Shown: positions 49,917-64,000 of the stretch, in pieces
Layout of the letters: every line of letters starts with the position of its first letter
How positions within the stretch are numbered: the stretch's first letter is position 1
DNA from: an uncultured Kiloniellaceae bacterium
Lineage (GTDB): Bacteria; Pseudomonadota; Alphaproteobacteria; Kiloniellales; Kiloniellaceae
NCBI GenBank assembly: GCA_947493695.1
Contig: CANLSF010000002.1
Span: 372,001-436,000, forward strand
DNA: 64,000 bases
Direction of reading: 5' to 3'
The notes under the pieces: model-generated
What the model was told of the DNA's origin: nothing
The model's database searches: none
Seen by the model: only the letters and a program-made list of their open reading frames with translations
Position numbers and translations under genes: made by a program

Positions 49917-50006
49917 ATGGATTATTGCCGTCACAAATCCAATGCGTCGGCTCAGCATCTGTTGAACCACATTACCCCGGTACCGGACCGAACCCGGTTG
50001 CTATGA
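49917..50006 (+). CDS. Possible 29-residue leader peptide coupled to the LapB-like gene
   Basis: ATG 49917 follows AAGGGAAG by 8 bases and opens a 29-codon frame. Its stop (TGA 50004-50006) overlaps the ATG of the secretion ATPase at 50003 (ATGA). The peptide begins MDYCRHKSNASAQHLL and has no membrane segment. The good ribosome binding site and the overlap suggest translational coupling, since the ATPase start itself has no clear Shine-Dalgarno sequence. It may be a regulatory ORF rather than a functional peptide. Confidence 0.4.
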   Translation: MDYCRHKSNASAQHLLNHITPVPDRTRLL

Positions 50007-52288
50007 CTGCAGGAGACCACAAGATTACGATGGCACCACGCGATCAGAGCGCCGGAGCGGATACAGATTCCAAATCCCAACCGACGGACAAAGACCCCCA
50101 GAAACTTCAGACCGAAGACGTCCTGGAAGCGCCGAAACAAGAGTGGCACGTAGCTCCGTCGTCAGTCGACTTCGAGGACCCGCTGGTACAAAGCGTGACA
50201 ATGCTCGCGACTTTGTTGCAACGTCCGATCTCGGCCGAGGCGCTTAAGGCAGGTCTGCCGCATGCTGAAGAGCGCTTTACCCCGGACCTCGCAGTCCGGG
50301 CGGCAGAGCGTGCAGGACTGACCGCGCGTGTTGTGCGTCGCCCGAAGCTCAAATCGATCCAGGCGGTAACCCTACCGTGCATTCTGCTTCTTAAAGGCAG
50401 TGGCGCCTGCGTCCTGACTAAGATCATCGACCGTCAAACAGCCGAAATCATGATTCCCGAAGGCGGTGGCGGCGCAAAAACCATCAGCATTGAAGAGCTC
50501 GAAGAGCAATATCTCGGGTATTCCATCTTCGCGCGGCCGGAATTCAAGTTTGACGACCGTGCTTCAGACATTCGCCTGAAACAGCCAACCGCATGGTTCT
50601 GGGGAACGCTTGCGAAGTTCTGGCCCATTTACAGTCACGTTGCCCTGGCCTCGGTCATGATCAACGTCTTCGCGATCGCCAGCCCACTCTTCATCATGAA
50701 CGTCTATGACCGGGTCGTGCCGAACAACGCCATTGAGACGCTCTGGGTTCTGGCCCTCGGTGTTTGCACCGTGTTCCTGTTCGAGTTCGTGATGCGCAAC
50801 ATGCGCACCTACTTCGTGGACATTGCCGGCAAAAATGCCGATGTGATCATTGCAAGCCGCCTGCTCGAACAGCTGATGTCCATGAAGCTCTCCAGCAAAC
50901 CGCCCTCCACCGGCGCGATGGCAAACAATCTTCGCGAGTTTGAGTCGCTGCGAGAGTTCTTCACATCCGGTACACTGGTTGCTTTCGTCGATCTGCCCTT
51001 CATCTTCCTGTTTCTCGGCATCATCTTCCTGGTCTCCGGTCCAATTGCCCTGATTCCCCTGATCGCGGTGCCCGTGGTTATCTTCGTCGGCGTTTGCCTT
51101 CAGGTGCCTCTGCGCCGGATCATCGAAAAAACCCATCGGGAATCCAGTCAGAAGCATGCATTGCTGGTTGAAACCATTGATGGCCTTGAGACCATTAAAG
51201 CCACTGCAGCCGAAGGCCGGGTGCAGCGCTCCTGGGAACGTTTCGTCGGTCTGACCGCTGAATCCTCGGGCAAGGCCAGGTTTCTCTCCGGGATCGCCAC
51301 AACCTTCGCCCAAGTGACGATCCAGCTGGTCACCGTCATCGTCGTTATTTACGGCGTTCATCTGATCTCCGAAGGCGCGATAACAATGGGCGCGCTGGTG
51401 GCTTCAACCATGCTGACGGGCCGGGCACTGGCACCACTGGGTGCGATTGCCGGCATGCTGACAAGACTCCAGCAATCACGCGTTGCCTTGAAGTCACTCG
51501 ATACGCTCATGAAGTCGCCGGTCGAACGCGACTCTGAAAAGACTTTCCTGCACAGACCCCGCCTGAGCGGCGAGATCGAATTCAAGAAGGTCAACTTCAG
51601 TTACCCGAACCAGGACCCTCTGGCGCTCGACACTCTGAGTTTCAAAGTAAAGCCGGGCGAAAAAATCGGAATTCTGGGTCGGATCGGCTCTGGCAAGAGT
51701 ACGATCGCGCGCCTTGTCCTGGGGCTTTACGAACCAAAGGAAGGTTCTGTCTTGATGGATGGAACCGATCTGCGTCAAATCGATCCGGCCGACCTGCGAC
51801 GCAATATCGGCTATGTCTCTCAGGATAATTACCTCTTCTTCGGTTCCGTTCGGGAAAACATCTCTTTCGGTTCGCCGCATGTCGATGACCAGACGATTTT
51901 GCGCGCGGCCGCGGTAGCAGGCGTCACCGACTTTCTGCGCACCCATCCGCACGGATTCGATCTGCAGGTCGGTGAGCGCGGCATGGCGTTGTCCGGCGGT
52001 CAACGGCAGTCGGTTGTTATTGCCCGCTCATTGCTACTCGATCCTCCCATCATACTGATGGACGAACCGACGAGCGGCATGGACAACTCGACAGAGGCAA
52101 TGTTCAAAACACGCCTCGGCAATGCCATGGCAGGAAAGACTCTCTTGCTGGTGACGCACCGAAGTTCTCTGCTGAGCCTCGTTGACCGGCTGATCATCCT
52201 GGACAACGGGAAAATCGTCGCCGACGGCAAAAAGGAAGAAGTCCTGGAGGCCCTCAAGCAAGGCCGTATTCGCGCAGGCGCCGGATGA
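50003..52288 (+). CDS. lapB: Type I secretion ABC transporter (LapB-like, C39-like domain)
   Basis: A 761-residue permease-ATPase. A Gln/Asp-rich start is followed by a C39-like domain (about residues 65-170; DPLVQSVTMLATLLQRPIS) that lacks the catalytic Cys, as in LapB and other RTX exporters. The membrane domain spans about 200-490. The ATPase has Walker A GRIGSGKS (559-566), signature LSGGQ (663-667) and Walker B with Asp687-Glu688. It drives export of the large adhesin. ATG 50003 overlaps a leader ORF stop; an upstream in-frame TTG at 49925 is less likely. HlyD follows at 52388. Confidence 0.92.
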   Translation: MTAGDHKITMAPRDQSAGADTDSKSQPTDKDPQKLQTEDVLEAPKQEWHVAPSSVDFEDPLVQSVTMLATLLQRPISAEALKAGLPHAEERFTPDLAVRAAERAGLTARVVRRPKLKSIQAVTLPCILLLKGSGACVLTKIIDRQTAEIMIPEGGGGAKTISIEELEEQYLGYSIFARPEFKFDDRASDIRLKQPTAWFWGTLAKFWPIYSHVALASVMINVFAIASPLFIMNVYDRVVPNNAIETLWVLALGVCTVFLFEFVMRNMRTYFVDIAGKNADVIIASRLLEQLMSMKLSSKPPSTGAMANNLREFESLREFFTSGTLVAFVDLPFIFLFLGIIFLVSGPIALIPLIAVPVVIFVGVCLQVPLRRIIEKTHRESSQKHALLVETIDGLETIKATAAEGRVQRSWERFVGLTAESSGKARFLSGIATTFAQVTIQLVTVIVVIYGVHLISEGAITMGALVASTMLTGRALAPLGAIAGMLTRLQQSRVALKSLDTLMKSPVERDSEKTFLHRPRLSGEIEFKKVNFSYPNQDPLALDTLSFKVKPGEKIGILGRIGSGKSTIARLVLGLYEPKEGSVLMDGTDLRQIDPADLRRNIGYVSQDNYLFFGSVRENISFGSPHVDDQTILRAAAVAGVTDFLRTHPHGFDLQVGERGMALSGGQRQSVVIARSLLLDPPIILMDEPTSGMDNSTEAMFKTRLGNAMAGKTLLLVTHRSSLLSLVDRLIILDNGKIVADGKKEEVLEALKQGRIRAGAG

Positions 52289-52387
52289 CCCGAACCGTCA
52301 GAAGGTCTGCAGGGTGAGCATTGATAGGTTAGACGTTAGCGATCACGGAGCAGTTGTGCCGACGGGTCCAGTAAGGAAGTAGTTCGA

Positions 52388-53719
52388 ATGTCGAGTCACG
52401 GTACCCATAAGGATGAAGATCTTTTCTTCATGCCCGACGTCCATGCAGCGGCCAGACGGCGTGGGCGGACCTTTGCTTACATTCTGACGCTGACATCGTT
52501 TCTGTTCTTCCTGATTTTCGGGATCTGGGCGAATCACGCCGTCTTGGATGAAGTCACGCGTGGCGAGGGTACGGTGGTTCCCTCCAGCAAGACACAGATC
52601 ATCCAGAACCTTGAGGGTGGTATCCTCGCCGGGATCATGGTGCGCGAAGGAGATATCGTGGAGCCGGGCGATATCCTGGTGCGTATCAATAACACGGCTG
52701 CCCGGGCGACTTTTAGGGATACCCGGAGTCAATACTACGCTTTGCTTGCAAAGGCCGCGCGCCTTGAGGCCGAGCTTGAAGATCGCGAAATCGAGTTTCC
52801 GGAAGACGCTGCGGAAAACGCACCCATCGAGGTCGCGACACAGCGTCAGCAGTTCGGCAATAGAAAGCGGCAACTCGTCGCTCAGATTGCTGTTCTTCAG
52901 GCCCAAAAATCCCAACGCGAACAGGAGATCACCGAAGCCAAGAGCCGCAGTCAGCAGTTGCGCCGAAGCCTGACGCTGGCTCAGGAAGAACGCAACATCA
53001 CGGCGCCATTGGTGAAGAAGGGCATAAGTCCGCGCCTCGACCTCATCCGTATCGACCGGCAGGTTTCCGACCTGGAAGGTGAACTGAAGACTATTCGCCT
53101 GAGCATGCCGCGCTTGCAAACGGCTGTGCTGGAGGCGCAACAACGCATCGACGAAATGATCTTATCGACGAAAGCACAGGTCTCCGAAGAGCTTAGTCAG
53201 GTGAGAACAGAGGCGAGGTCGATCAGCGAGTCCCTCACAGCAGGTGAAGACCTCGTCACCCGAACGGAAGTGCGCTCACCGGTTCGCGGGACGATTAAGG
53301 AGGTTAAGCACAATACGGTCGGTGGTGTTATCCGTCCTGGAGAAGACATCATCGAGATTGTGCCGCTTGACGACACATTGCTGATTGAAGCGCAGATCCG
53401 GCCTTCCGACATCGCATTTCTGCGGCCTGGTCAGGAAGCAACCATTAAGATCACGGCCTACGACTTTTCGGTTTATGGCGGCCTGAAAGCAGAACTTGAA
53501 ACCATCTCGGCCGGTACGATCAAGGATGATCAGGGCGAAAGTTTCTATCGTGTCTATCTCCGAACCGCCGAAATCACGCTTAAGCGCAATGGCGCGGAAC
53601 TTCCGATCATCCCCGGCATGACGTCGACGGTCGAGATCCTGACCGGCAAGAAAACCGTTTTGGACTATCTGCTGAAACCGATCTTAAAGGCACGGGACAA
53701 AGCCTTGAAGGAACGATGA
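52388..53719 (+). CDS. lapC: HlyD-family membrane fusion protein (LapC-like)
   Basis: A 443-residue type I secretion adaptor. One N-terminal membrane segment (about residues 24-46) is followed by a split lipoyl domain (TRGEGTVVPSSKTQIIQNLEGGILAGIMVREGDIVEPGDILVRI), a long coiled coil (about 100-275) and a C-terminal beta-barrel (IRPSDIAFLRPGQEATIKITAYDFSVYGGLKAELETIS). It bridges the ABC exporter and TolC. It is 99 bases after the LapB-like gene. Length is typical for LapC-type proteins. Confidence 0.93.
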   Translation: MSSHGTHKDEDLFFMPDVHAAARRRGRTFAYILTLTSFLFFLIFGIWANHAVLDEVTRGEGTVVPSSKTQIIQNLEGGILAGIMVREGDIVEPGDILVRINNTAARATFRDTRSQYYALLAKAARLEAELEDREIEFPEDAAENAPIEVATQRQQFGNRKRQLVAQIAVLQAQKSQREQEITEAKSRSQQLRRSLTLAQEERNITAPLVKKGISPRLDLIRIDRQVSDLEGELKTIRLSMPRLQTAVLEAQQRIDEMILSTKAQVSEELSQVRTEARSISESLTAGEDLVTRTEVRSPVRGTIKEVKHNTVGGVIRPGEDIIEIVPLDDTLLIEAQIRPSDIAFLRPGQEATIKITAYDFSVYGGLKAELETISAGTIKDDQGESFYRVYLRTAEITLKRNGAELPIIPGMTSTVEILTGKKTVLDYLLKPILKARDKALKER

Positions 53720-53929
53720 TCTCGTCGTCTGAAACCAGTCACTACCAGCTTTTTTTAAGAAATGATTTCCGGTTCGCTCCGATCAACTGCATTCACGCTG
53801 GCTTAATCCGCCTTAACTGAAAATCTTCAAAGCCTCTTAACCAATATCTGAAAGACTCCGATAACTCAGAGCACGCCTCTTCGCAATCCTGCGGAAAGGC
53901 GCGCGTTTGAGCGCGCAAAAGCTGTTCGC

Positions 53930-54664
53930 GTGGAGGTGCACGGGCAGCAGGATCATGAACGGGACTTGCTCAAAGTGCATCGGCGACGGTTTTTCACGGG
54001 GGCCGCATCTTTTATCGCTGGCTTGTCGTCCGTGTCTGTGACCGGCCGCGCCGCGACCCTGCTGGACCTCACGAAATCGATCAACACAGCAGCGCCCGGT
54101 ATCTTCAACACAGTCGAGTTCAGATCAAAATCCTTCAAGGCCCTGCCCCAGTGGCGCAGAGTCCTCGAGCAGGTCAAACGTGAAAAACGTGCCTTTGGAG
54201 CCTGTATAAGCGACGCGGCAAACTGCACAAGCGAAGTTCAGAAATCCTGGCGCGAGATTATTCTTTCGACCCGCAAGCTTGATCGGGCGGCACAAATCGA
54301 CGCGATCAATCGCTACTTCAACCGCTGGCCCTACAAACTTGACAATGAGGTCTTCGGGGTAAACGAGTATTGGGCCAGTCCCGTGGAATTCATGACTCGT
54401 TCTGGCGACTGTGAGGATTTTTCGATCGCAAAATACTTCGCCCTAAAAGACCTGGGATTTGCAGAAGAAGAAATGCGCGTCGTCATCGTCATGGATCGCA
54501 TTCGCAACATCGGACACGCCATTCTGGCGATATACGAAAAGAACGACATCCTCGTCCTCGATAGCCTTTCGAACGTCATTTTGTCACACTCCAAATACAA
54601 GCATTATCTGCCGCAATATTCGATGAATGAAACCACCCGCTGGGCACACTTCGTTCAGCAATAG
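53930..54664 (+). CDS. lapG: LapG-type transglutaminase-like cysteine protease
   Basis: A 244-residue periplasmic protease of the bacterial transglutaminase-like family. RRRFFTGAASFIAGL near residues 18-32 is a Tat-like signal. The catalytic triad is Cys161 (SGDCEDF), His196 (GHAILAI) and Asp211 (LDSLSN). LapG cuts the N-terminal retention module of LapA-type adhesins and so releases them from the cell. The start GTG 53930 is not secure. The sensor gene follows by 21 bases, in the place where LapD would be expected. Confidence 0.92.
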   Translation: MEVHGQQDHERDLLKVHRRRFFTGAASFIAGLSSVSVTGRAATLLDLTKSINTAAPGIFNTVEFRSKSFKALPQWRRVLEQVKREKRAFGACISDAANCTSEVQKSWREIILSTRKLDRAAQIDAINRYFNRWPYKLDNEVFGVNEYWASPVEFMTRSGDCEDFSIAKYFALKDLGFAEEEMRVVIVMDRIRNIGHAILAIYEKNDILVLDSLSNVILSHSKYKHYLPQYSMNETTRWAHFVQQ

Positions 54665-54685
54665 AGACTACCAAAGAGATCAATC

Positions 54686-56809
54686 ATGATGTCCAAGAGC
54701 AACACATTGAACGCGCTGGAAGGGTCGGAAAAGGATCCAACCTCTGTCGAGCTTAACCAACCCGGCTCAACGTCGGAATCAGCCAACGCTCTGCCGAAAT
54801 CGGCACTGATCGGTCTCGTCGTTATCGTGCTTGTCGCTATTGTAATTTCCTGGCTGGTCATAGAATCGAAAAGAGAACAGGTCGTCGACGACCTGCAGCA
54901 ACGCATGCGGATCACCGTGGAGGCTCGCGCCGAGGTCATATCGACGTGGCTTGAGGGGACTGCACGGCTCGCCGACCGGCTTGTCGAAAGCGAATTGTTC
55001 CGACTGTTCGCCAGTGATGTCGACGCGGCCGGAGGCCTTATCGATCCTTCGGCTCAAAATCAGGACGCCCAGGACAACGGTCTGGGCATTGCCCTGCTTG
55101 AACAGCTTCCTTTCATGGAACGGGTCGTGACCGACTTCGTAATTTCAGCTGACTTCACGGCGGGATATGTTTTGGGTAAAGCCGGTGTCGCCTACGTCAG
55201 TAGCGGCGGTGCCACCGCAGTGCAGCCGCAACAGGTGGAAATGGCGCTTGATGTCCTGGCGAACGGCGAACGACAGTTCGGGGCGCCCAGGGTCGCGGCT
55301 GCGGGGCTCGTCATAGACATCTACATCCCGATACTTCCTGCTGCATCACAGACCGAAGAAGCTCAACCGATTGCCGTTCTGATGGTTACAGCCCCTGTTG
55401 CCGCCAGGCTCGCCGAAATCCTTGCACCGCGTCCACTGGCGCCTGAAGGCGAAGAACTCCACCTCGTCCATAAGACTTCTGTCGGGCTGATCGAACTCCT
55501 TCCAACACAAACGCCCGAGATTAAAACGCTCGGCAACGATGGCGCGATCCCCGGTGTGAGTGGTCAGCCTTTTGTCGCCGGACCATCGCTTGACGGCACG
55601 ACCATGGCCTACGCACGCGCCACCTCAATATCAGGCGACAGTTTCTGGGCGGTTCTTGAAATGGATCGTGCGTCCGCCCACGGCGAATACCGCAATTTTT
55701 CGGTGATGGTCGTCATTGCGACGGCACTCCTCGTCTTCACGCTTGTCTCCGTCTTTGGTGCCGTCTGGGCACAGCTGGGCAGTAATCACAATCGACTGAT
55801 GGCCGCTCAGTTCAAACGCCTCGCAACACGTATTGACACTCAGAAACGCTTCCTGGACAGCATCAACAGCAGTATCGCCGACTACATCGGTCTGAAGGCC
55901 GAGGACGGCAGCTACCGCTATGCCAACAAAGCCTTCGCCGACGCTGTCGGGCGCACACCGGAGGAAGTCATCGGGCTGGATGACGTCGCGCTCTTTGGCC
56001 AGGGAACCGCAGACCGCCTCGCCCTGTCCGATCAGAAAGCGATCAGGCTGGGACAGGTCGTTACTTTCAACGAAGAAGTCTATTTGAGTGGTGTCCAGCG
56101 GCATTTGCAATTCTCCAAACTTCCTTTTCAGAACGAACAGGATCAGGTGAGCGGCGTAATCTCCGTGGCCCGCGATGTCACCGAACTGGTGGAAGAACAG
56201 GCAAAGCGCGATCGCGCTGTCCGGCAAATGGTGACGGCATTGGTGCGTGCGATCGAACTGCGGGATCCCTATCTGGCGGGTCACTCGCGGCGTGTCGCCA
56301 GTCTGTCAGTGGCCGTCGCCAAACGCCTGCAGCTCTCTACTGAGGATGTGGATACCGTCGAGATTGCCGCAAACCTCTCGCAGCTCGGTAAGCTGGCGGT
56401 TTCAAGGAAGCTCCTCAACAAGCCGGACCGGCTGAACGACGCAGAGATTGCAGAGGTAAGAAAACATGTTGATCATGCTGCCGCGATGCTGCGTGACATT
56501 GATTTCGAACTCCCGGTTCTGCCCACCATTTATCAGATGCACGAGCGGCTCGACGGCAATGGATATCCGACCGGACTGCGAGCTGATGCTATTCTGATAA
56601 CCTCCCAAATCCTGGGGATATGCGATGTCTTCGCCGCGCGGGTCGAGCCGCGTTCCTACCGCGCAGGCCTTTCAACTGACGAAGCCATCAAGATTCTCCA
56701 TGACAACGGGGGCCGTTATGCGCCCAGGATCGTTGCCGCACTCGATGAAGTCGTCGCAAGCGTTGCGGGAGAGAGACTGATGGCAAGTCTGCCGGCAAAT
56801 GCGGATTGA
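54686..56809 (+). CDS. Membrane sensor with periplasmic, PAS and degenerate HD-GYP domains
   Basis: A 707-residue protein. The first membrane helix is at about 40-60, the periplasmic sensor about 61-335 (size of a double Cache domain), and the second helix about 338-360. A PAS domain follows at about 385-495, then an HD-GYP-type domain at about 512-690. His533 (GHSRR), His594, the His619-Glu620 region and Gly-Tyr-Pro at 626-628 remain, but the metal-binding HD pair is replaced by Ser565-Gln566 and the first His of HHE is Met618. It is thus probably inactive as a c-di-GMP phosphodiesterase and may act as a receptor. It is co-transcribed with lapG and could replace LapD. Confidence 0.85.
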   Translation: MMSKSNTLNALEGSEKDPTSVELNQPGSTSESANALPKSALIGLVVIVLVAIVISWLVIESKREQVVDDLQQRMRITVEARAEVISTWLEGTARLADRLVESELFRLFASDVDAAGGLIDPSAQNQDAQDNGLGIALLEQLPFMERVVTDFVISADFTAGYVLGKAGVAYVSSGGATAVQPQQVEMALDVLANGERQFGAPRVAAAGLVIDIYIPILPAASQTEEAQPIAVLMVTAPVAARLAEILAPRPLAPEGEELHLVHKTSVGLIELLPTQTPEIKTLGNDGAIPGVSGQPFVAGPSLDGTTMAYARATSISGDSFWAVLEMDRASAHGEYRNFSVMVVIATALLVFTLVSVFGAVWAQLGSNHNRLMAAQFKRLATRIDTQKRFLDSINSSIADYIGLKAEDGSYRYANKAFADAVGRTPEEVIGLDDVALFGQGTADRLALSDQKAIRLGQVVTFNEEVYLSGVQRHLQFSKLPFQNEQDQVSGVISVARDVTELVEEQAKRDRAVRQMVTALVRAIELRDPYLAGHSRRVASLSVAVAKRLQLSTEDVDTVEIAANLSQLGKLAVSRKLLNKPDRLNDAEIAEVRKHVDHAAAMLRDIDFELPVLPTIYQMHERLDGNGYPTGLRADAILITSQILGICDVFAARVEPRSYRAGLSTDEAIKILHDNGGRYAPRIVAALDEVVASVAGERLMASLPANAD

Positions 56810-56818
56810 ATTTTTTTG

Positions 56819-57847
56819 ATGGGATTCCGAGCCATAGTCTGGCTGCTCATCATTTTCTGCTTATCGTTCACGCCGAATGCTTCAGAGGCGCAAAAAGCCG
56901 ATCTGGACTCCCGAATTGAAGTCGATGCCCATTCTTACCCCTGGAGCCCAATCGGGCGCCTGAACGCCGGTGGGCGCGGACACTGCACGGGCTTTATGAT
57001 CGGCGAACGTAAGCTACTCACGGCGGCCCACTGTATGTACGACGCAGTCCGGGGACGCTGGCGCGGTGCAGGTGAAATGCACTTCATTGCTGCTTATCAG
57101 AGAGAGAATTACCGCTTCAACTCAAAGGTCGAGAGTTATCAGGTTTCAAAGGACTTCGATCCCCGGAACGCTGCGTCGCCAGAGAGTGCAATGACCGACT
57201 GGGCTGTTGTGAAACTGACAAAGCCGCTTGGGCAGCAGACCGGCTGGTATGGTCTTCAAGGCCTCGACAAAGAGTTGTTGGAACGCCTGCTAGCCGGTGA
57301 TGCCTTGCTTTTGCAGGCCGGTTATCAACGCGGACGGGCGCATGTCATGACGGCGACCTTCAACTGCGGATTTTTGGGCCGCTTCGCGGACAACGCCGGC
57401 ATCGCCCATGATTGCCCTGTTGCGAAAGGCGATTCCGGCTCGCCCCTCTTGGTATTTGACCAGGGACGAATTTCGGCGGTCGGCATACACGTCGTGCAAT
57501 CCCGATTAAACGGCAGGGCCATTGCTGGTGTTCTCTCACTGGACACATTTCGTCCTGAGGCAACCGATCCAACCACCCGCACTGCAACCGCGTTGCTGCG
57601 CGAACACTGGGGCCCCGGTCAAAGGCCACCAAAGGGCGCAGCGATCAAACGACTGCCCATAAAAGCAACCGATAGCCTCCTCCAGATTCTGGGCTTTTTA
57701 CCTGCCGAACAGCCGGTCAGCCCTGACCAGCGCCGTGCAGCGGTTAAGGAATTTCAGTTGGAGCAGAAACTTCCCCGCGACGGAAAGATATCGCTCAAAC
57801 TCCTCGAACAGCTTATTTTCGCGAGCCGGAAGCCACCGTTGCGTTAA
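56819..57847 (+). CDS. Secreted trypsin-like serine protease with C-terminal PG-binding-like region (paralogue 1)
   Basis: A 342-residue exported protease. The signal peptide covers residues 1-24 (near ASEA-QK). A chymotrypsin-fold domain spans about 35-245 with His71 (TAAHC), Asp127 (MTDWAVV) and Ser206 (KGDSGSPL). Residues about 280-335 (DSLLQILGFLPAEQPVSPDQRRAAVKEFQLEQKLPRDGKIS) resemble a peptidoglycan-binding repeat. ATG 56819 is 9 bases after the sensor stop, with no ribosome binding site, so it relies on coupling. It is 120 bases from its paralogue at 57974. It may process the adhesin or other surface proteins. Confidence 0.88.
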   Translation: MGFRAIVWLLIIFCLSFTPNASEAQKADLDSRIEVDAHSYPWSPIGRLNAGGRGHCTGFMIGERKLLTAAHCMYDAVRGRWRGAGEMHFIAAYQRENYRFNSKVESYQVSKDFDPRNAASPESAMTDWAVVKLTKPLGQQTGWYGLQGLDKELLERLLAGDALLLQAGYQRGRAHVMTATFNCGFLGRFADNAGIAHDCPVAKGDSGSPLLVFDQGRISAVGIHVVQSRLNGRAIAGVLSLDTFRPEATDPTTRTATALLREHWGPGQRPPKGAAIKRLPIKATDSLLQILGFLPAEQPVSPDQRRAAVKEFQLEQKLPRDGKISLKLLEQLIFASRKPPLR

Positions 57848-57973
57848 CCATTCTCCGGGTGGCCGTCTTGCCTATGTTGCCTGATTTCCACAGGGATTGG
57901 TCCAGACGAAAATACTTCGCCGTTAACCTTCCACGTTAAAGCTTGGCTCAAGTTTTCATCTTAGTCTTTGACA

Positions 57974-59026
57974 ATGATGAACGCGTCCCAATACCGCATG
58001 CCGCAAGCGCCCTCTTTGCCCAAGACATTGAAATATTTATTTATTTCGGCGCTAACCCTGTCTAGTGCGACCGTGGGGCAGAGCAACGCGTGGGCGATCC
58101 CGGACCGGGTCACCGTTAACGCCATGGAATACCCCTGGAGCGCCATCGGAAAGATTGAAACCTCGATTGGCCACTGCTCCGGCTTTCTGATCAGTAAGAA
58201 ACACGTCCTGACAGCCGCTCACTGCCTTTATGATCGCGAAAGAAGCCGCTGGGTCAAAGCCTCAGAGATCCAGTTCACTGCTGGTTACCAGAATCATGAG
58301 CACAAGCTGACCTCAAAGGTAAAGAGTTACAAGCAATCCAAGAAGTACAAAAAGACCCAGGACGCTTCGGTTAAAAATACGGTCACAGACTGGGCGCTTC
58401 TGGAATTGAAAGAACCCTTGGGCAAGGCCGCAGGCTGGCTGGCGCTGAAGCGTCTGGACAATGCCTTGCTTAACGACCTGGCAAAAGGCGACGCCACGCT
58501 GCTACACGCAGGATACCGTGGCGATTCTCCGCACCGTTTGAAAGCCGGGTTCGGATGCGAGATTGCCGGATACTTCAAGAACGGCGTGGGGATCGCCCAT
58601 CGCTGCAGTATTATGCAGGGCGATTCCGGTTCACCGCTGATGGTGTTCGCTGAAGGTGAAATCTATGCCACTGGCGTTCATGTGATCGGCGCTTCCGACG
58701 GCAAACAGGAAATCGCAGGAGCGCTTTCGGTGTCTGTCTTTCATCCGGCTGTCGGGTCGGCGCGCGCTGCAAGAATCCTCCGCCCGGCCGGTAACATCTG
58801 GCGTGAGAGCAAACCTCCGCGGGTGAACCGCAAAGCAGAGAAAACGCCGGTCGATACGATCGATCTGCTGTTAAAGGAATTGGGCTATCTGCGCGGCCGC
58901 AACACCCGCACGTCATCGACAAAGCGGCGAAACGCCATTCAGGCCTTTTTGTCGGACACGAACATGACGGGCCCCGCCAGACCAAGCGTCTCTTTGATGG
59001 GCGAACTGGTCCGACAACTCGATTGA
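57974..59026 (+). CDS. Secreted trypsin-like serine protease with C-terminal PG-binding-like region (paralogue 2)
   Basis: A 350-residue protease with the same layout as its neighbour. An N-terminal signal anchor/peptide (about 18-42) is followed by the protease domain with His83 (TAAHC), Asp139 (VTDWALL) and Ser218 (QGDSGSPL), then a C-terminal part with IDLLLKELGYLRGRNTRTSSTKRRNAIQAFLSDTNMTG. The middle is rich in Lys (KVKSYKQSKKYKKTQ). The start is uncertain between ATG 57974 and 57977. The pair arose by tandem duplication and has since diverged. The gene converges with the adhesin gene. Confidence 0.88.
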   Translation: MMNASQYRMPQAPSLPKTLKYLFISALTLSSATVGQSNAWAIPDRVTVNAMEYPWSAIGKIETSIGHCSGFLISKKHVLTAAHCLYDRERSRWVKASEIQFTAGYQNHEHKLTSKVKSYKQSKKYKKTQDASVKNTVTDWALLELKEPLGKAAGWLALKRLDNALLNDLAKGDATLLHAGYRGDSPHRLKAGFGCEIAGYFKNGVGIAHRCSIMQGDSGSPLMVFAEGEIYATGVHVIGASDGKQEIAGALSVSVFHPAVGSARAARILRPAGNIWRESKPPRVNRKAEKTPVDTIDLLLKELGYLRGRNTRTSSTKRRNAIQAFLSDTNMTGPARPSVSLMGELVRQLD

Positions 59027-59195: not shown

Positions 59196-62100
59196 TCACG
59201 CCCCGTTGATCAAGGTGCTGGTGTCGAGATCAGTGAGTTCGTTGATCGCATTGTCGATGTCCTGGAACACAATCGTCGTCCCGCTCTGCAGCTCCAGGGT
59301 AACAACGTCGTCGGTCTTGGAGAAGGACGCCACCGCATCTTCAATCGAGATATCGCCCCCCGCATCGCCACCGTCCGTGACATCCTCGAACGAAAGCACG
59401 TCTCCGCTGGAAACCGAAAAGTCGAAGATCGTGTTGTTACCTTCATCGGCGGTCAGATTGAAGACGAAGGTATCACCATCTGCCCCGCCGTAGAGGTCAT
59501 CATCACCTGCGCCTGCGATCAGAATGTCCTCGCCACCCTGCCCCAGCAGGATATCATCGCCATCACCGCCATTGAGCAGGTCGGCTTCACCGCGTGTATC
59601 ATTCGCAGCCTCTTGAACGAAACGTTCCTGGTTGTCGAGAATGAAGGTCATCACATCGAGTTTGCTCGGCGCATGCCCCAGGGTCGTAGTCAGGTGGTCA
59701 ACCAGAGTCTGGTATCCACCACCTTCCTCCCCAGTCGCGCCGAACCCGCCATCCTCGACAGAGGCAAGCATCCAGTCCGAATTAATGACGTCACCAAAGA
59801 TCAGGTCGTTGCCGTCACCGCCGGTGATCTCGTCCTCGCCTACCGCATTCATGATCGTCAGGGTCTGGTCGCCCAGCAGTGCCGAGAGGCTTTCGGTCTC
59901 TTCAACGATGGTGACCGATGAGTCGTCATTGCCTTCTGCGGCAACCCTTTCCAGCTCATCCGGTGCGATCTCGGTGCCGACACCAAAGACCTGGACGCTA
60001 ACGTCGATGCCGTCAAAATCGACAGAACCATCGTAACCGTCGTTGTCCTCGCCATCGCTAAGGAAGTAGATCTTGTTGACCGCATTTTCATGCCGACTTC
60101 CATCATTCAGGAAGTCTTCGACAGCCTGGAGCGGAGCTTCAAACTGCGTTTCGCCGGAGGCATCCAACTTCGCAATTACACTCTCCAAAGACTTCCCGGA
60201 GTCATTTTCAAAACGGTCGTTCGCAGCGTTGTAGGTGAAGACCTGATTAACCGCGACGCCACTATTGAAAGCAACCAGTTGGAAGGTAGTGAGATTGTCA
60301 TTCACCAGTTGAGCACGCAGCGAATCGTGAAGTGCGGTGAAGGCTTCCTTTGCCTCGACTAGGCCGGCTTCTGACGGCTCCACATGCTTAGTGATCGGCC
60401 GACCGACGTTTCTTGTACCAAACCAGGTGAATTTGACCGGCTGCACGGTAATGTTAAAGCCAGGCTCGTTGATATCCAACGCGCCCTCGGGCAAGCGAAT
60501 AATCAGGTCACCCATCTGCTCGTCACGCAAAACCGCCGTTCCGGAGCTGTTCACATAGACGGAGTCTTCATAGTCCTCGCCATACTGAACCCTGGCGCCT
60601 GCCGGCAAGCCACTCAGGCGATAGCCACTGGCATTGGGGCCCGAGGTCTGGAAGTCAGGAATGTTGACCCGGAGGAAGCTCATGGAATCCGAGACGTCGA
60701 TGACAAAGGATACGTTGACCGGCACCTCTTCAGACCCGGTTCCGCCAACATCCCCGATCAGGATATCGTCGCCATCTGCGCCGAGGATTTCACCTTCGTT
60801 CGCGGTTTCAGACGGGACCCGATGCGGAGACGTGCCTTCGCCATCATCATTATCGTTGCTGCCGACCACCAGTTCCGGATCGGGTTCGATCACCTGCACT
60901 GAAGCGTAGGCAGTCGCCTCGGCGGTTTCGGTGTTGTCGGAGAGATCCGTTTCTACACCGCTGGTCCCATTGTCGCCGTTCAGCGCAGCAAGTTCGATAC
61001 CATCGATCTTGACCGTAAAGGCCAGATTCTCTCCATCGGTAACCGAGTTCGTTGCCTGTACGCCAATCATCATATCGAAAGGAAGTGACACGTCATCGAG
61101 CGAGAGAGTCGACTGCCCCTCCGCCAGCTCGGTAAACACAAAACCTTCCGGCAGATCAATCTTGACGTTGTGCTGCTCCGAGCCATCGGTAGCATCACCC
61201 CAGACCGCTGCAATGTGCAGGCGCCCGATTTCACCGGCGCCGAAGCTAAGGTCTTCGTCACCATCAGAGTCGGTCACGCTGAAAGTGGTGATTGTGATCG
61301 GGTCCGCGACAGCGTCCACAATCACGTCAGCACTGTCACTGGCTGTCGCCGTCAAACCTGTATGGCAATCGCCGCCATCGCGCGCTGTCGCGGCCACCGT
61401 GAGCGTACCCAGGTCAACATCGCTGTCGGCTGGCGCGCTCACTCCGAAGCTGGTCGACACAGATGCGGTACTCAGGCCGATCACCCTGGCGGTCGTGCCA
61501 TCATCGGAAACCGATACGCTTGCGCCCGGATGGTCCAGCTCGATCTGGCTGAAATCGTACGCCGCGCTCGGGTCGAGACCTGTGATCTCGAGCTCGGTGA
61601 TTACGTCGTCACCTTCGGCCGTCGCGGTAAAGTTCACCGTTCCGGTCGTGTCTTCCTTGATGACAATCCCGCCAGCTTCCGCATCAAGCTGGATCTCTAC
61701 GTTCGGCTCGACCACACCGGGTTCGACAGCAACAGTCAGAACGGCACTCGAGGTATCGCCGTCACTGTCGCGCAAGGTGTAATCGAAGCTTTCGTCGAGG
61801 GTCACAGCACAGTCATGCGCCGTAACGCCCAGGATCAGGAAGTCACTGTTGTGATTGCCCGAACCATTGTCGCTTTGAACAGGTGTGACACGGATCTGAC
61901 TGAAGGCTTCTTCGGCGCTCACATGAATGGAAACCAAACCATCGTAATCGCCGCGAACCGGATCGATCGTTGCTGTCACCCAGGTTTCACCGTCACTGGA
62001 AACCTCGACCGTCAACTGCTCGATGTTTCCGGCATCGTAGAGCACACCATTAAAGAGAGCTCCAACCAAAACACTGGCAGAATCCGTCTCACCGGGCAGG

Positions 62101-64000
62101 CCAATATCGATGTATTCAAACGGCGCGCCCTCGGGAAGTCCCGCAACATCGCGGAATGATGTTTCCGCACGATCTCCGGCATTTCCGTCGCCGTTTGTGC
62201 CAACACCGCCATAGAGCTGGCTCCCCTCGATGCGGACGTCCTTACTGCCCAACGCGACGCCACTTTCGTAGCTGTCAGTCTCTGGATTCCAGCGCGATGC
62301 GGAGATCGTAAAGCCTTCACTTTCGAAGGACGCAACCCATTCCGCAGGCGATTTACCCAGGCTCTCGCCTGGCGCAAAGCCGGCAGTCGCAGTGACCGTA
62401 CCGTGGTCGCCTTCGACAGACTGATAGCTATAGTCACCTGCGTTCGCACCGGTCAGATCGACTGACAGCGTTCCGCCCAGGTCGGTGCCGTTAATAATCA
62501 GTGTCGTGCCATCAAAGCTGTAGTCGACATTCTCGACCGGTGCAGGATTGCCGCCGCTGACACTCAGGGCAGATCCATCGGCGTTCAATTCATAGGAAAC
62601 GCCCTGATGAACGATCTTACTGATGACACCACTCTGGTCGGCGCCGACTTCATCAACACCCTCCGGACCGGCATCGGAAATCAGGTTTCCGGTGGCAACA
62701 CCGTTTTCCACCACTTCGGCAATGTTATCGGCAGCGGTTGGCACGTCATCAACCACCTTGACGTTGGCGGTGCCCTCGACGAAGTCTCCGTCACCATCCG
62801 TCGCCGTGAAAGCGATTCCCAGATCGAGAATATCCTCGCTGCTTACAGGGTGATCGAGCTGACCTTCGAGGGTGAAAGTGAACTCACCGAATTCACCGCC
62901 CGCTGCATCGAAGACCACCGTAAAGACAACAGCGCCACCGGCCATGGCCGTCAGCGTCTGCGTTCCGGCGTCGTAACTGTAACTCACGGCTTCGCCGTTC
63001 GACGTCAGACCGGCAGGCCCGTCGGCAGCGATGACCGAGCCCGCGCCATCAGCGCCGAAATCCACGCCAAGCACAGCAAGAATCGAAGTTGAATCCGAAC
63101 CATCGCTGCCGTTTGCCAGGTCGTCCTCATCCACAGCGGCGCACGGACAAAGCGATATGTTGTCAATGTAGCCGCCGAGCGTGTTCTCTTTGCCCACAGC
63201 CCGGAACTCGAGGCGCGTTACGTCGGCGTCACCGCCCTTGACGTTTAGAGAGATCTCCCGCCAACCGGACGTCTCGTCAGTCAGAGTGGCAACCTTCTCG
63301 CCATTCCACCAGACTTCGGCATCACTGCTGCCGCTACCGCCATCGCGGGGACGCGGCGCGTACTGGAATGTCAATTCGTAAGTCTCGCCCGCCTTGGTGT
63401 CGACATCCTGATAGACATGCGCGTTGGACTCCGAAAAGGAGCCTCTGGCGTGTGAATCAAGTTCAAGCTTGGCGGCGCCATGCTGAGCACGAATGCCGCC
63501 GAGGTTGCCGTTCTGGATCTCAATCGGCGCGTTCGAGGCATCAAGGTCGGGGTTCCAGCCGGGAATCCGGCCTTCGCCATAGGTGTTCCAGTTCCGACTG
63601 CCCAGCCCGTGGCCTTCTTCAAAACTGCCGTTGACGATCAGGTTCCCGTGGACGCAAGGATCAACCAGAACCGGCGCATCGTCTTCAATGGTGACGCTCA
63701 GGCTGCCGCGGGCAAAGTCCGGGCTGTCGCTGTCCTGGACGATGAAATCGAACGTCAGCTCCAGCGGATCGGCGGCTCCGCTCTGTCCCGCATCGGGATG
63801 GTCGACAGGCCCGAGCAAAGTAACCCAGTACTCGCCGGTCTGCTGGTCGACCTTGAGTTCGATCACATCCTCACCACCGGCAGCGCCTTTCAAGACCAAC
63901 ATGCCGTCGACCACGGTCGCAGCGCCGAACACGATCGGCGTACCGCTCGAGGTCAGGGATGCCTCGGTATTGCTCTCGGGATCTTCCGCAGCGGAAAAAC
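59196..64000 (-). CDS. Giant RTX/VWA adhesin (LapA-like), C-terminal part, 5' end outside window
   Basis: At least 1600 residues of a large secreted adhesin; the frame is open to the window edge, so the GTG at 63932 is not the true start. In order (numbering from 63932): Cadherin/VCBS-like repeats, a galactose-binding-like domain (about 95-265, NGSFEEGHGLG to IDNISLCPC), T1SS-143/VCBS-like repeats, then a VWA domain (about 1068-1360) with MIDAS DVSDS and a large insertion. RTX repeats follow (GGDGNDLIFGD, GGDGDDILLGQGGEDILIAGAGDDDLYGG), then a T1SS C-terminal signal region ending in DFSVSSGDVLSFEDV and STLINGA. The N-terminal LapG cleavage site should lie outside the window. Confidence 0.9.
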   Translation of the reverse strand, partial: FSAAEDPESNTEASLTSSGTPIVFGAATVVDGMLVLKGAAGGEDVIELKVDQQTGEYWVTLLGPVDHPDAGQSGAADPLELTFDFIVQDSDSPDFARGSLSVTIEDDAPVLVDPCVHGNLIVNGSFEEGHGLGSRNWNTYGEGRIPGWNPDLDASNAPIEIQNGNLGGIRAQHGAAKLELDSHARGSFSESNAHVYQDVDTKAGETYELTFQYAPRPRDGGSGSSDAEVWWNGEKVATLTDETSGWREISLNVKGGDADVTRLEFRAVGKENTLGGYIDNISLCPCAAVDEDDLANGSDGSDSTSILAVLGVDFGADGAGSVIAADGPAGLTSNGEAVSYSYDAGTQTLTAMAGGAVVFTVVFDAAGGEFGEFTFTLEGQLDHPVSSEDILDLGIAFTATDGDGDFVEGTANVKVVDDVPTAADNIAEVVENGVATGNLISDAGPEGVDEVGADQSGVISKIVHQGVSYELNADGSALSVSGGNPAPVENVDYSFDGTTLIINGTDLGGTLSVDLTGANAGDYSYQSVEGDHGTVTATAGFAPGESLGKSPAEWVASFESEGFTISASRWNPETDSYESGVALGSKDVRIEGSQLYGGVGTNGDGNAGDRAETSFRDVAGLPEGAPFEYIDIGLPGETDSASVLVGALFNGVLYDAGNIEQLTVEVSSDGETWVTATIDPVRGDYDGLVSIHVSAEEAFSQIRVTPVQSDNGSGNHNSDFLILGVTAHDCAVTLDESFDYTLRDSDGDTSSAVLTVAVEPGVVEPNVEIQLDAEAGGIVIKEDTTGTVNFTATAEGDDVITELEITGLDPSAAYDFSQIELDHPGASVSVSDDGTTARVIGLSTASVSTSFGVSAPADSDVDLGTLTVAATARDGGDCHTGLTATASDSADVIVDAVADPITITTFSVTDSDGDEDLSFGAGEIGRLHIAAVWGDATDGSEQHNVKIDLPEGFVFTELAEGQSTLSLDDVSLPFDMMIGVQATNSVTDGENLAFTVKIDGIELAALNGDNGTSGVETDLSDNTETAEATAYASVQVIEPDPELVVGSNDNDDGEGTSPHRVPSETANEGEILGADGDDILIGDVGGTGSEEVPVNVSFVIDVSDSMSFLRVNIPDFQTSGPNASGYRLSGLPAGARVQYGEDYEDSVYVNSSGTAVLRDEQMGDLIIRLPEGALDINEPGFNITVQPVKFTWFGTRNVGRPITKHVEPSEAGLVEAKEAFTALHDSLRAQLVNDNLTTFQLVAFNSGVAVNQVFTYNAANDRFENDSGKSLESVIAKLDASGETQFEAPLQAVEDFLNDGSRHENAVNKIYFLSDGEDNDGYDGSVDFDGIDVSVQVFGVGTEIAPDELERVAAEGNDDSSVTIVEETESLSALLGDQTLTIMNAVGEDEITGGDGNDLIFGDVINSDWMLASVEDGGFGATGEEGGGYQTLVDHLTTTLGHAPSKLDVMTFILDNQERFVQEAANDTRGEADLLNGGDGDDILLGQGGEDILIAGAGDDDLYGGADGDTFVFNLTADEGNNTIFDFSVSSGDVLSFEDVTDGGDAGGDISIEDAVASFSKTDDVVTLELQSGTTIVFQDIDNAINELTDLDTSTLINGA

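Follow-up and report, generated by a model that had tools for sequence, protein, structure and literature searches.

The two described systems closest to the locus analyzed here are LapD/LapG of Pseudomonas fluorescens and DvhD/DvhG of Desulfovibrio (Nitratidesulfovibrio) vulgaris. LapD, an inner-membrane receptor whose cyclic-di-GMP domain is dead, is encoded next to the LapG protease gene, consists of a LapD/MoxY periplasmic domain followed by HAMP, GGDEF and EAL domains, and belongs to a system in which the adhesin is cut at [T/A/P]AAG. The D. vulgaris system has reportedly been reconstituted in P. fluorescens, in a study said to have appeared in PNAS in 2024. Its receptor, DvhD, has a dCache domain and SQ in place of the HD pair of its HD-GYP domain, and binds c-di-GMP without hydrolyzing it; in the model of the authors, DvhD controls the LapG-like protease DvhG and is functionally analogous to LapD (PMC13090378). 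The control of a LapG-like protease by an HD-GYP protein in D. vulgaris is also mentioned second-hand, with reference to Karbelkar et al., in another article (PMC11784015).

The window analyzed here, by which we mean the whole 64-kb stretch of DNA, contains four genes on the plus strand, at 49925-56809, in the order lapB-type, lapC-type, lapG-like and receptor. These encode a lapB-type type I secretion ABC transporter with a C39-like N-terminus (49925-52288; TIGR03375 type_I_sec_LssB, 989.6 bits with a cut-off of 693.1, and Peptidase_C39, ABC_membrane and ABC_tran domains), a lapC-type membrane fusion protein of the HlyD family (52388-53719; TIGR01843, 405.8 bits with a cut-off of 208.65), a LapG-like periplasmic cysteine protease (53930-54664; PF06035, Peptidase_C93, 66.6 bits with a cut-off of 27) and a DvhD-type receptor (54686-56809). 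As in P. fluorescens, an inner-membrane receptor with an apparently dead cyclic-di-GMP domain thus adjoins the protease gene, and the [T/A/P]AAG site recurs in a candidate adhesin, but the window receptor is built from dCache-like, PAS and HD-GYP domains.

The protease combines the features of the BTLCP (C93) family, namely, the C93 domain, a putative catalytic triad C161-H196-D211, and acidic residues (D160 and E162) on both sides of the cysteine. It matches PDB entries 4fgo (1.8e-21) and 4u65 (2.7e-19), both of which we take to be LapG proteins. Because its score with the NCBIfam LapG equivalog model NF045674 is below the cut-off (97.7 against 320 bits), the protein counts, on that model, as LapG-like and not as LapG in the strict sense. 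Its N-terminus (window 53930-54060; HRRRFFTGAASFIAG) resembles a Tat signal; a hydropathy scan found no span at threshold in this region, in contrast to DvhG, which has an N-terminal membrane anchor.

The receptor gene starts with an ATG at 54686, 21 bases past the end of the lapG-like frame, and its product comprises a transmembrane helix, a periplasmic dCache-like domain, a second transmembrane helix, a PAS domain (PAS_4, 66.3 bits; cut-off 23.1) and a degenerate HD-GYP domain (HD_5, 123.5 bits; cut-off 27.2). The two top hydropathy peaks, at residues 41-59 and 340-358, flank the periplasmic part, and three further, weaker peaks also rise above the threshold. Whereas an active HD-GYP phosphodiesterase carries the HD pair and the HHE metal ligands, this protein has SQ (S565-Q566) in place of HD and MHE in place of HHE, with M618 at the position of the first histidine; H533, H594, H619, E620 and the GYP motif (G626-Y627-P628) are retained despite the loss of the HD pair. 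LapD, in turn, is defined by a LapD_MoxY_N periplasmic domain together with GGDEF-EAL, and Pfam gives no such match in the receptor. The earlier note, made from the sequence alone, had described the spacing to lapG, the order of helix, periplasmic sensor, helix, and PAS and HD-GYP parts, and each of the retained and replaced residues in these same terms, and all of this holds.

The receptor is a full-length homolog of DvhD, across the periplasmic, PAS and HD-GYP domains. In sequence searches, it matches the DvhD PAS/HD-GYP region (PDB 9rc0; E 1.8e-78), the HD-GYP domain (9rbz; E 4e-51) and the periplasmic domain (9rc2; E 3.7e-27), and a profile of the SQ-type receptors as a group reaches the latter with E 8.7e-46. 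When a predicted model of the receptor (mean pLDDT 79.7 and pTM 0.43, from a 12-row alignment) was compared with known structures using Foldseek, ranks 1 to 6 were all DvhD, with 46-47% identity and TM-scores by target length of 0.88-0.91 for the HD-GYP domain and a TM-score of 0.84, also by target length, for the periplasmic domain. The two systems share the domain order, the dCache-like periplasmic fold, SQ for HD, the loss of the initial histidine of HHE, a protease of the LapG-like kind adjoining the receptor, type I secretion system (T1SS) genes, and more than one candidate adhesin per genome. They differ in that the host of the window is an alphaproteobacterium, the window adhesin gene lies on the opposite strand, H619 of the window receptor corresponds to Asn in DvhD, and K582, M646, E668 and P567 of DvhD are not conserved.

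The last four of these are canonical or bridging-site residues of DvhD. In the residue register obtained from the sequence alignment and from the motifs numbered in PMC13090378, the DvhD number equals the window number minus 6, and five of the eight named canonical contacts of DvhD (Y523, L577, Y621, R650 and Y652) are kept as Y529, L583, Y627, R656 and Y658. The other three are changed (K582 to I588, M646 to R652, and E668, the guanine-specificity residue of DvhD (PMC13090378), to N674). Among the bridging-site residues K520, P567 and R569, the first and last correspond to R526 and K575, which are conservative changes, whereas S573, at the position of P567, is not; this position is P in 65 of 80 fetched relatives of the receptor, and the P567T change in DvhD weakened stabilization by c-di-GMP (PMC13090378). 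Because three canonical contacts and the bridging P567 are changed, the ligand of the receptor or its affinity could differ from that of DvhD. Across the 80 relatives, conservation varies by position (R656 in 80, Y658 in 78, L583 in 69, GYP in 80, H594 in 80, H533 in 79), with N at the position of N674 in 58, and the HD position is occupied by SQ in 72, AQ in 5, CQ in 2 and AG in one.

The same relatives bear out the pairing: in 68 of the 80, a lapG precedes the receptor gene on the same strand, as counted by gene midpoints given that long frames overlap, so the linkage is more than chance. The gap between the two genes does not exceed 73 bases in the linked relatives, except for one with 747, and the linkage is found in both Pseudomonadota and Thermodesulfobacteriota. 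The remaining 12 relatives have no lapG in the DNA examined; five of these start no more than about 170 bases from the end of a contig, so that lapG is lacking in 7 of the 75 relatives not cut in this way. Three loci (L124, L125 and L130) contain short SQ-type genes, with frames of 430-437 aa and no lapG in the DNA examined, that form a separate branch of the tree.

A profile search of the host genome (6.46 Mb) yielded one C93 match and no LapD_MoxY_N match above the cut-off, the best score being 12.9 bits against 25. A lapD homolog elsewhere in this genome, the finding that the earlier note had set against its own reading, was accordingly not encountered, and we rejected the possibility of a hidden LapD, given that the LapD_MoxY_N search produced noise only: at E 1, 4 of 14 control genomes give matches too. 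The absence of GGDEF and EAL genes from the window, likewise remarked on in that note, is confirmed by Pfam; the 10 GGDEF and 8 EAL matches of the genome (7 of the latter over the cut-off) all lie outside it, and a periplasmic domain flanked by two membrane spans was seen in none of the four GGDEF/EAL proteins that were read by hydropathy, one of which has a single hydrophobic stretch. The GGDEF matches point to a capacity for c-di-GMP synthesis in this host. Besides the receptor, the genome encodes two HD_5 proteins.

A candidate substrate is encoded next to this locus. The minus-strand gene that occupies 59196-64000 of the window and runs on to window-equivalent position 68192 encodes a T1SS adhesin of 2998 residues with seven stretches of T1SS-143 repeats; VWA and RTX-repeat matches are marginal, neither of them reaching its cut-off when the whole protein is scored. 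Two genes for trypsin-like serine proteases (56816-57847, with a peptidoglycan-binding match under the cut-off, and 57968-59026) separate it from the receptor gene, which is on the opposite strand. The adhesin has a single [TAPS]AAG motif, ETAAG at residues 141-145, near the N-terminus and encoded outside the window; it thus shows the LapA-type combination of [T/A/P]AAG after an N-terminal module with T1SS repeats, and is a probable LapG substrate. ETAAG occurs in the same place in a second adhesin of the host genome (C2:1004229), EPAAG in a 376-residue frame (C6:70599) and ETVAG in a third frame (C5:290181).

The N-terminal modules were aligned from 32 loci, including that of the adjacent adhesin and three more from the host genome, and 31 of them cover the site, which reads ETAAG in 22, DVAAG in three, EPAAG and EVAAG in one each, and otherwise in four. 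Thus, AAG is kept in 27 of the 31 modules, that of the 2998-residue adhesin included, whereas 23 fit [T/A/P]AAG strictly, the other four having V before AAG, outside the published LapG site, which is cut between the alanines (PMC13090378). All 23 searched genomes of the family contain matches to the module, up to 11 per genome (eleven in G396, nine each in G391 and G397, eight in G257). Candidate adhesins outnumber C93 matches by 4 to 1 in the host genome and by 8 to 1 in G257.

To place the locus in its class, we surveyed an evenly drawn sample of 385 alphaproteobacterial genomes, in which a C93 match is present in 114 and a LapD_MoxY_N match in 10 (over the cut-off in 9); the latter genomes may encode MoxY-type kinases. 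A locus with a C93 gene was found by profile in 91 of the 114 genomes, and in 79 of these the gene is LapG-like (E < 1e-50). In 53 of the 79 genomes, the LapG-like gene has an HD-GYP gene no more than 1.5 kb away; this fraction is not a pure rate because the loci came by a mixed route, some through similarity to the window receptor and most through C93, and do not cover every C93 gene of every genome. The HD pair is missing from all 60 distinct lapG-adjacent HD-GYP genes, and R656 (R650 of DvhD) and R659 are present in every one. These genes fall into an SQ type (11), an MN/LN type (43) and a short type (6; the three that were scanned gave no Pfam match to PAS). All 11 SQ-type genes are located downstream of lapG and are co-directional with it.

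The comparison with HD_5 genes at large used 32 loci, 30 from a search of 58 genomes of the class that leans to good scores and two from the host genome. By a coarse pattern, 22 of these keep HD-x-G-K or HHE..DG.GYP. The ten with neither motif are the window gene, three other lapG-linked genes of the SQ and MN types, and six that are not known to be linked to lapG, two of which belong to the host genome; the loss of catalytic motifs is, by these patterns, not confined to lapG neighbors. In the 26 genomes with a LapG-like gene and no HD-GYP neighbor, 57 of 111 neighboring ORFs, taken from a single lapG locus in each genome, were scanned against Pfam: the most frequent domains are PAS and histidine kinase, each in 6 of the 57 ORFs, Diguanyl_cycl_sensor is found in 3, and EAL and GGDEF are absent among the 25 commonest families listed, beyond which there are 76 rarer ones.

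We consider it very probable that the window receptor is an alphaproteobacterial DvhD, with a dead HD-GYP domain serving as the c-di-GMP sensor that restrains a LapG-like protease responsible for the release of adhesins. The proposal of the earlier note that a receptor for c-di-GMP or another ligand replaces LapD here and controls LapG is, by analogy, supported by the published role of this full-length homolog with the same SQ. With c-di-GMP binding, absent catalysis, the direction of control and the cleavage site carried over from DvhD, the HD-GYP domain would no longer cut c-di-GMP but would act as a sensor. At high cytoplasmic c-di-GMP, the bound receptor would change conformation through the PAS stalk and the membrane helices, and its periplasmic dCache-like domain would then restrain the protease encoded just upstream; the adhesins exported by the lapB/lapC-type system would be held in the outer membrane, plugged there by the modules at their N-termini. 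A drop in c-di-GMP would free LapG, the adhesins would be cut within ETAAG, between ETA and AG, and the cell would detach.

It is unlikely that the receptor shares the fold and the partner of DvhD while responding to another nucleotide, such as 3'3'-cGAMP or pGpG, or mainly to a ligand of the periplasmic dCache-like domain. Such a response would fit the replacement of E668 by N674, common among the relatives, the membership of the periplasmic fold in a ligand-binding family, and the ability of DvhD itself to bind 3'3'-cGAMP (501 nM, compared with 99 nM for c-di-GMP; PMC13090378), but R656, Y658 and L583 are kept in the window receptor and the host genome contains the 10 GGDEF matches. The retained H533, H594, H619, E620 and GYP could be taken to indicate that the HD-GYP domain is still an active phosphodiesterase, the linkage to lapG merely reflecting local removal of c-di-GMP. 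We regard this as very improbable, given that the HD pair is lost here and in every lapG-adjacent gene of the survey, that most of the HD_5 loci used for comparison keep a catalytic motif whereas the window gene keeps neither, and that DvhD, which shares the SQ, showed no hydrolysis of c-di-GMP with the ions tried (PMC13090378). Finally, the uncut relatives without lapG might hint that the receptor is a chance neighbor with no functional tie to LapG; in view of the 68 linked relatives in two phyla and of the published functional tie between DvhD and DvhG (PMC13090378; PMC11784015), we give this reading almost no credence.

The DvhD-type receptor of the window has a commoner counterpart in the class, the MN type, which likewise combines a PAS domain and an apparently dead HD-GYP domain beside lapG and, in the one member examined, has transmembrane spans flanking a periplasmic part. 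Relative to lapG, 39 of the 43 MN/LN-type genes are head-to-head, three are convergent and one is co-directional. The HD position reads MN, LN, IN or MG; H594 is replaced by Ser in 33 of 43 and just 3 retain the Tyr of GYP, whereas H533 and E620 are kept in 35 each, and R656 and R659 in all 43, so that most but not all of the predicted metal site is lost. The nearest PDB match of the PAS/HD-GYP part is DvhD (3.3e-71 with a profile), but the MN-type profile finds no match to the DvhD periplasmic domain 9rc2 at E 0.01. Because dCache_1 matches below the cut-off are present in three of five MN proteins scanned, a remote form of the dCache fold is fairly likely. Six genomes of the class sample carry both the SQ and the MN type; in Rhodospirillum sp. 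UBA1311 (L134:7129-16348), lapG with an SQ-type receptor lies beside a second lapG that is head-to-head with an MN-type receptor. In another genome (G015), an LN-type HD-GYP gene (C1:160797-161279) is located about 21 kb from the LapG-like gene (C1:139420), so the partner need not be adjacent.

The SQ and MN types separate at full support both in a fasttree tree of 135 rows and in a mixture-model tree of 48 rows hand-picked from these, with six long rows, the short type and near-copies left out, and with the window row dropped as identical to L004. In the first tree, four Desulfobacterota rows are placed within the alphaproteobacterial SQ rows; a transfer from Alphaproteobacteria to Desulfobacterota was considered, and we claim no direction because, in the 48-row tree, a single clade of all non-Desulfobacterota SQ rows is not rejected (p-AU 0.569). 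A wider proposition, to which we give even chances, is that in Alphaproteobacteria LapG is usually partnered not by LapD but by a dead HD-GYP receptor from one of two or more deep families, SQ and the commoner head-to-head MN, that the MN type, in which HD, H594 and HH are replaced and the metal site is largely lost, is a second LapG regulator whose periplasmic module is not recognizably that of DvhD, and that both circuits coexist in some genomes, each with a lapG to itself.

The idea that an HD-GYP sensor can take over from LapD has already been published, for DvhD (PMC13090378), and since DvhD, with the same build, already does this job, the window locus belongs to a known arrangement. The text of PMC13090378 does not contain the word Alphaproteobacteria, although the class-level distribution in its Fig. 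9b may include them; in the literature searched, that figure aside, HD-GYP control of a LapG-like protease was described for D. vulgaris, and we found no description of the MN type or of the class-wide picture. The MN type is thus a more novel lead than the window locus.

The substitution of an HD-GYP sensor for LapD reaches beyond the sulfate reducers. In Alphaproteobacteria, C93 genes are common, LapD_MoxY_N is rare, and 53 of the 79 genomes surveyed have an apparently dead HD-GYP gene close to the LapG-like one. The candidate substrates and sites named here are directly testable, and the analysis also points to genomes that pair several candidate adhesins with one C93 match.
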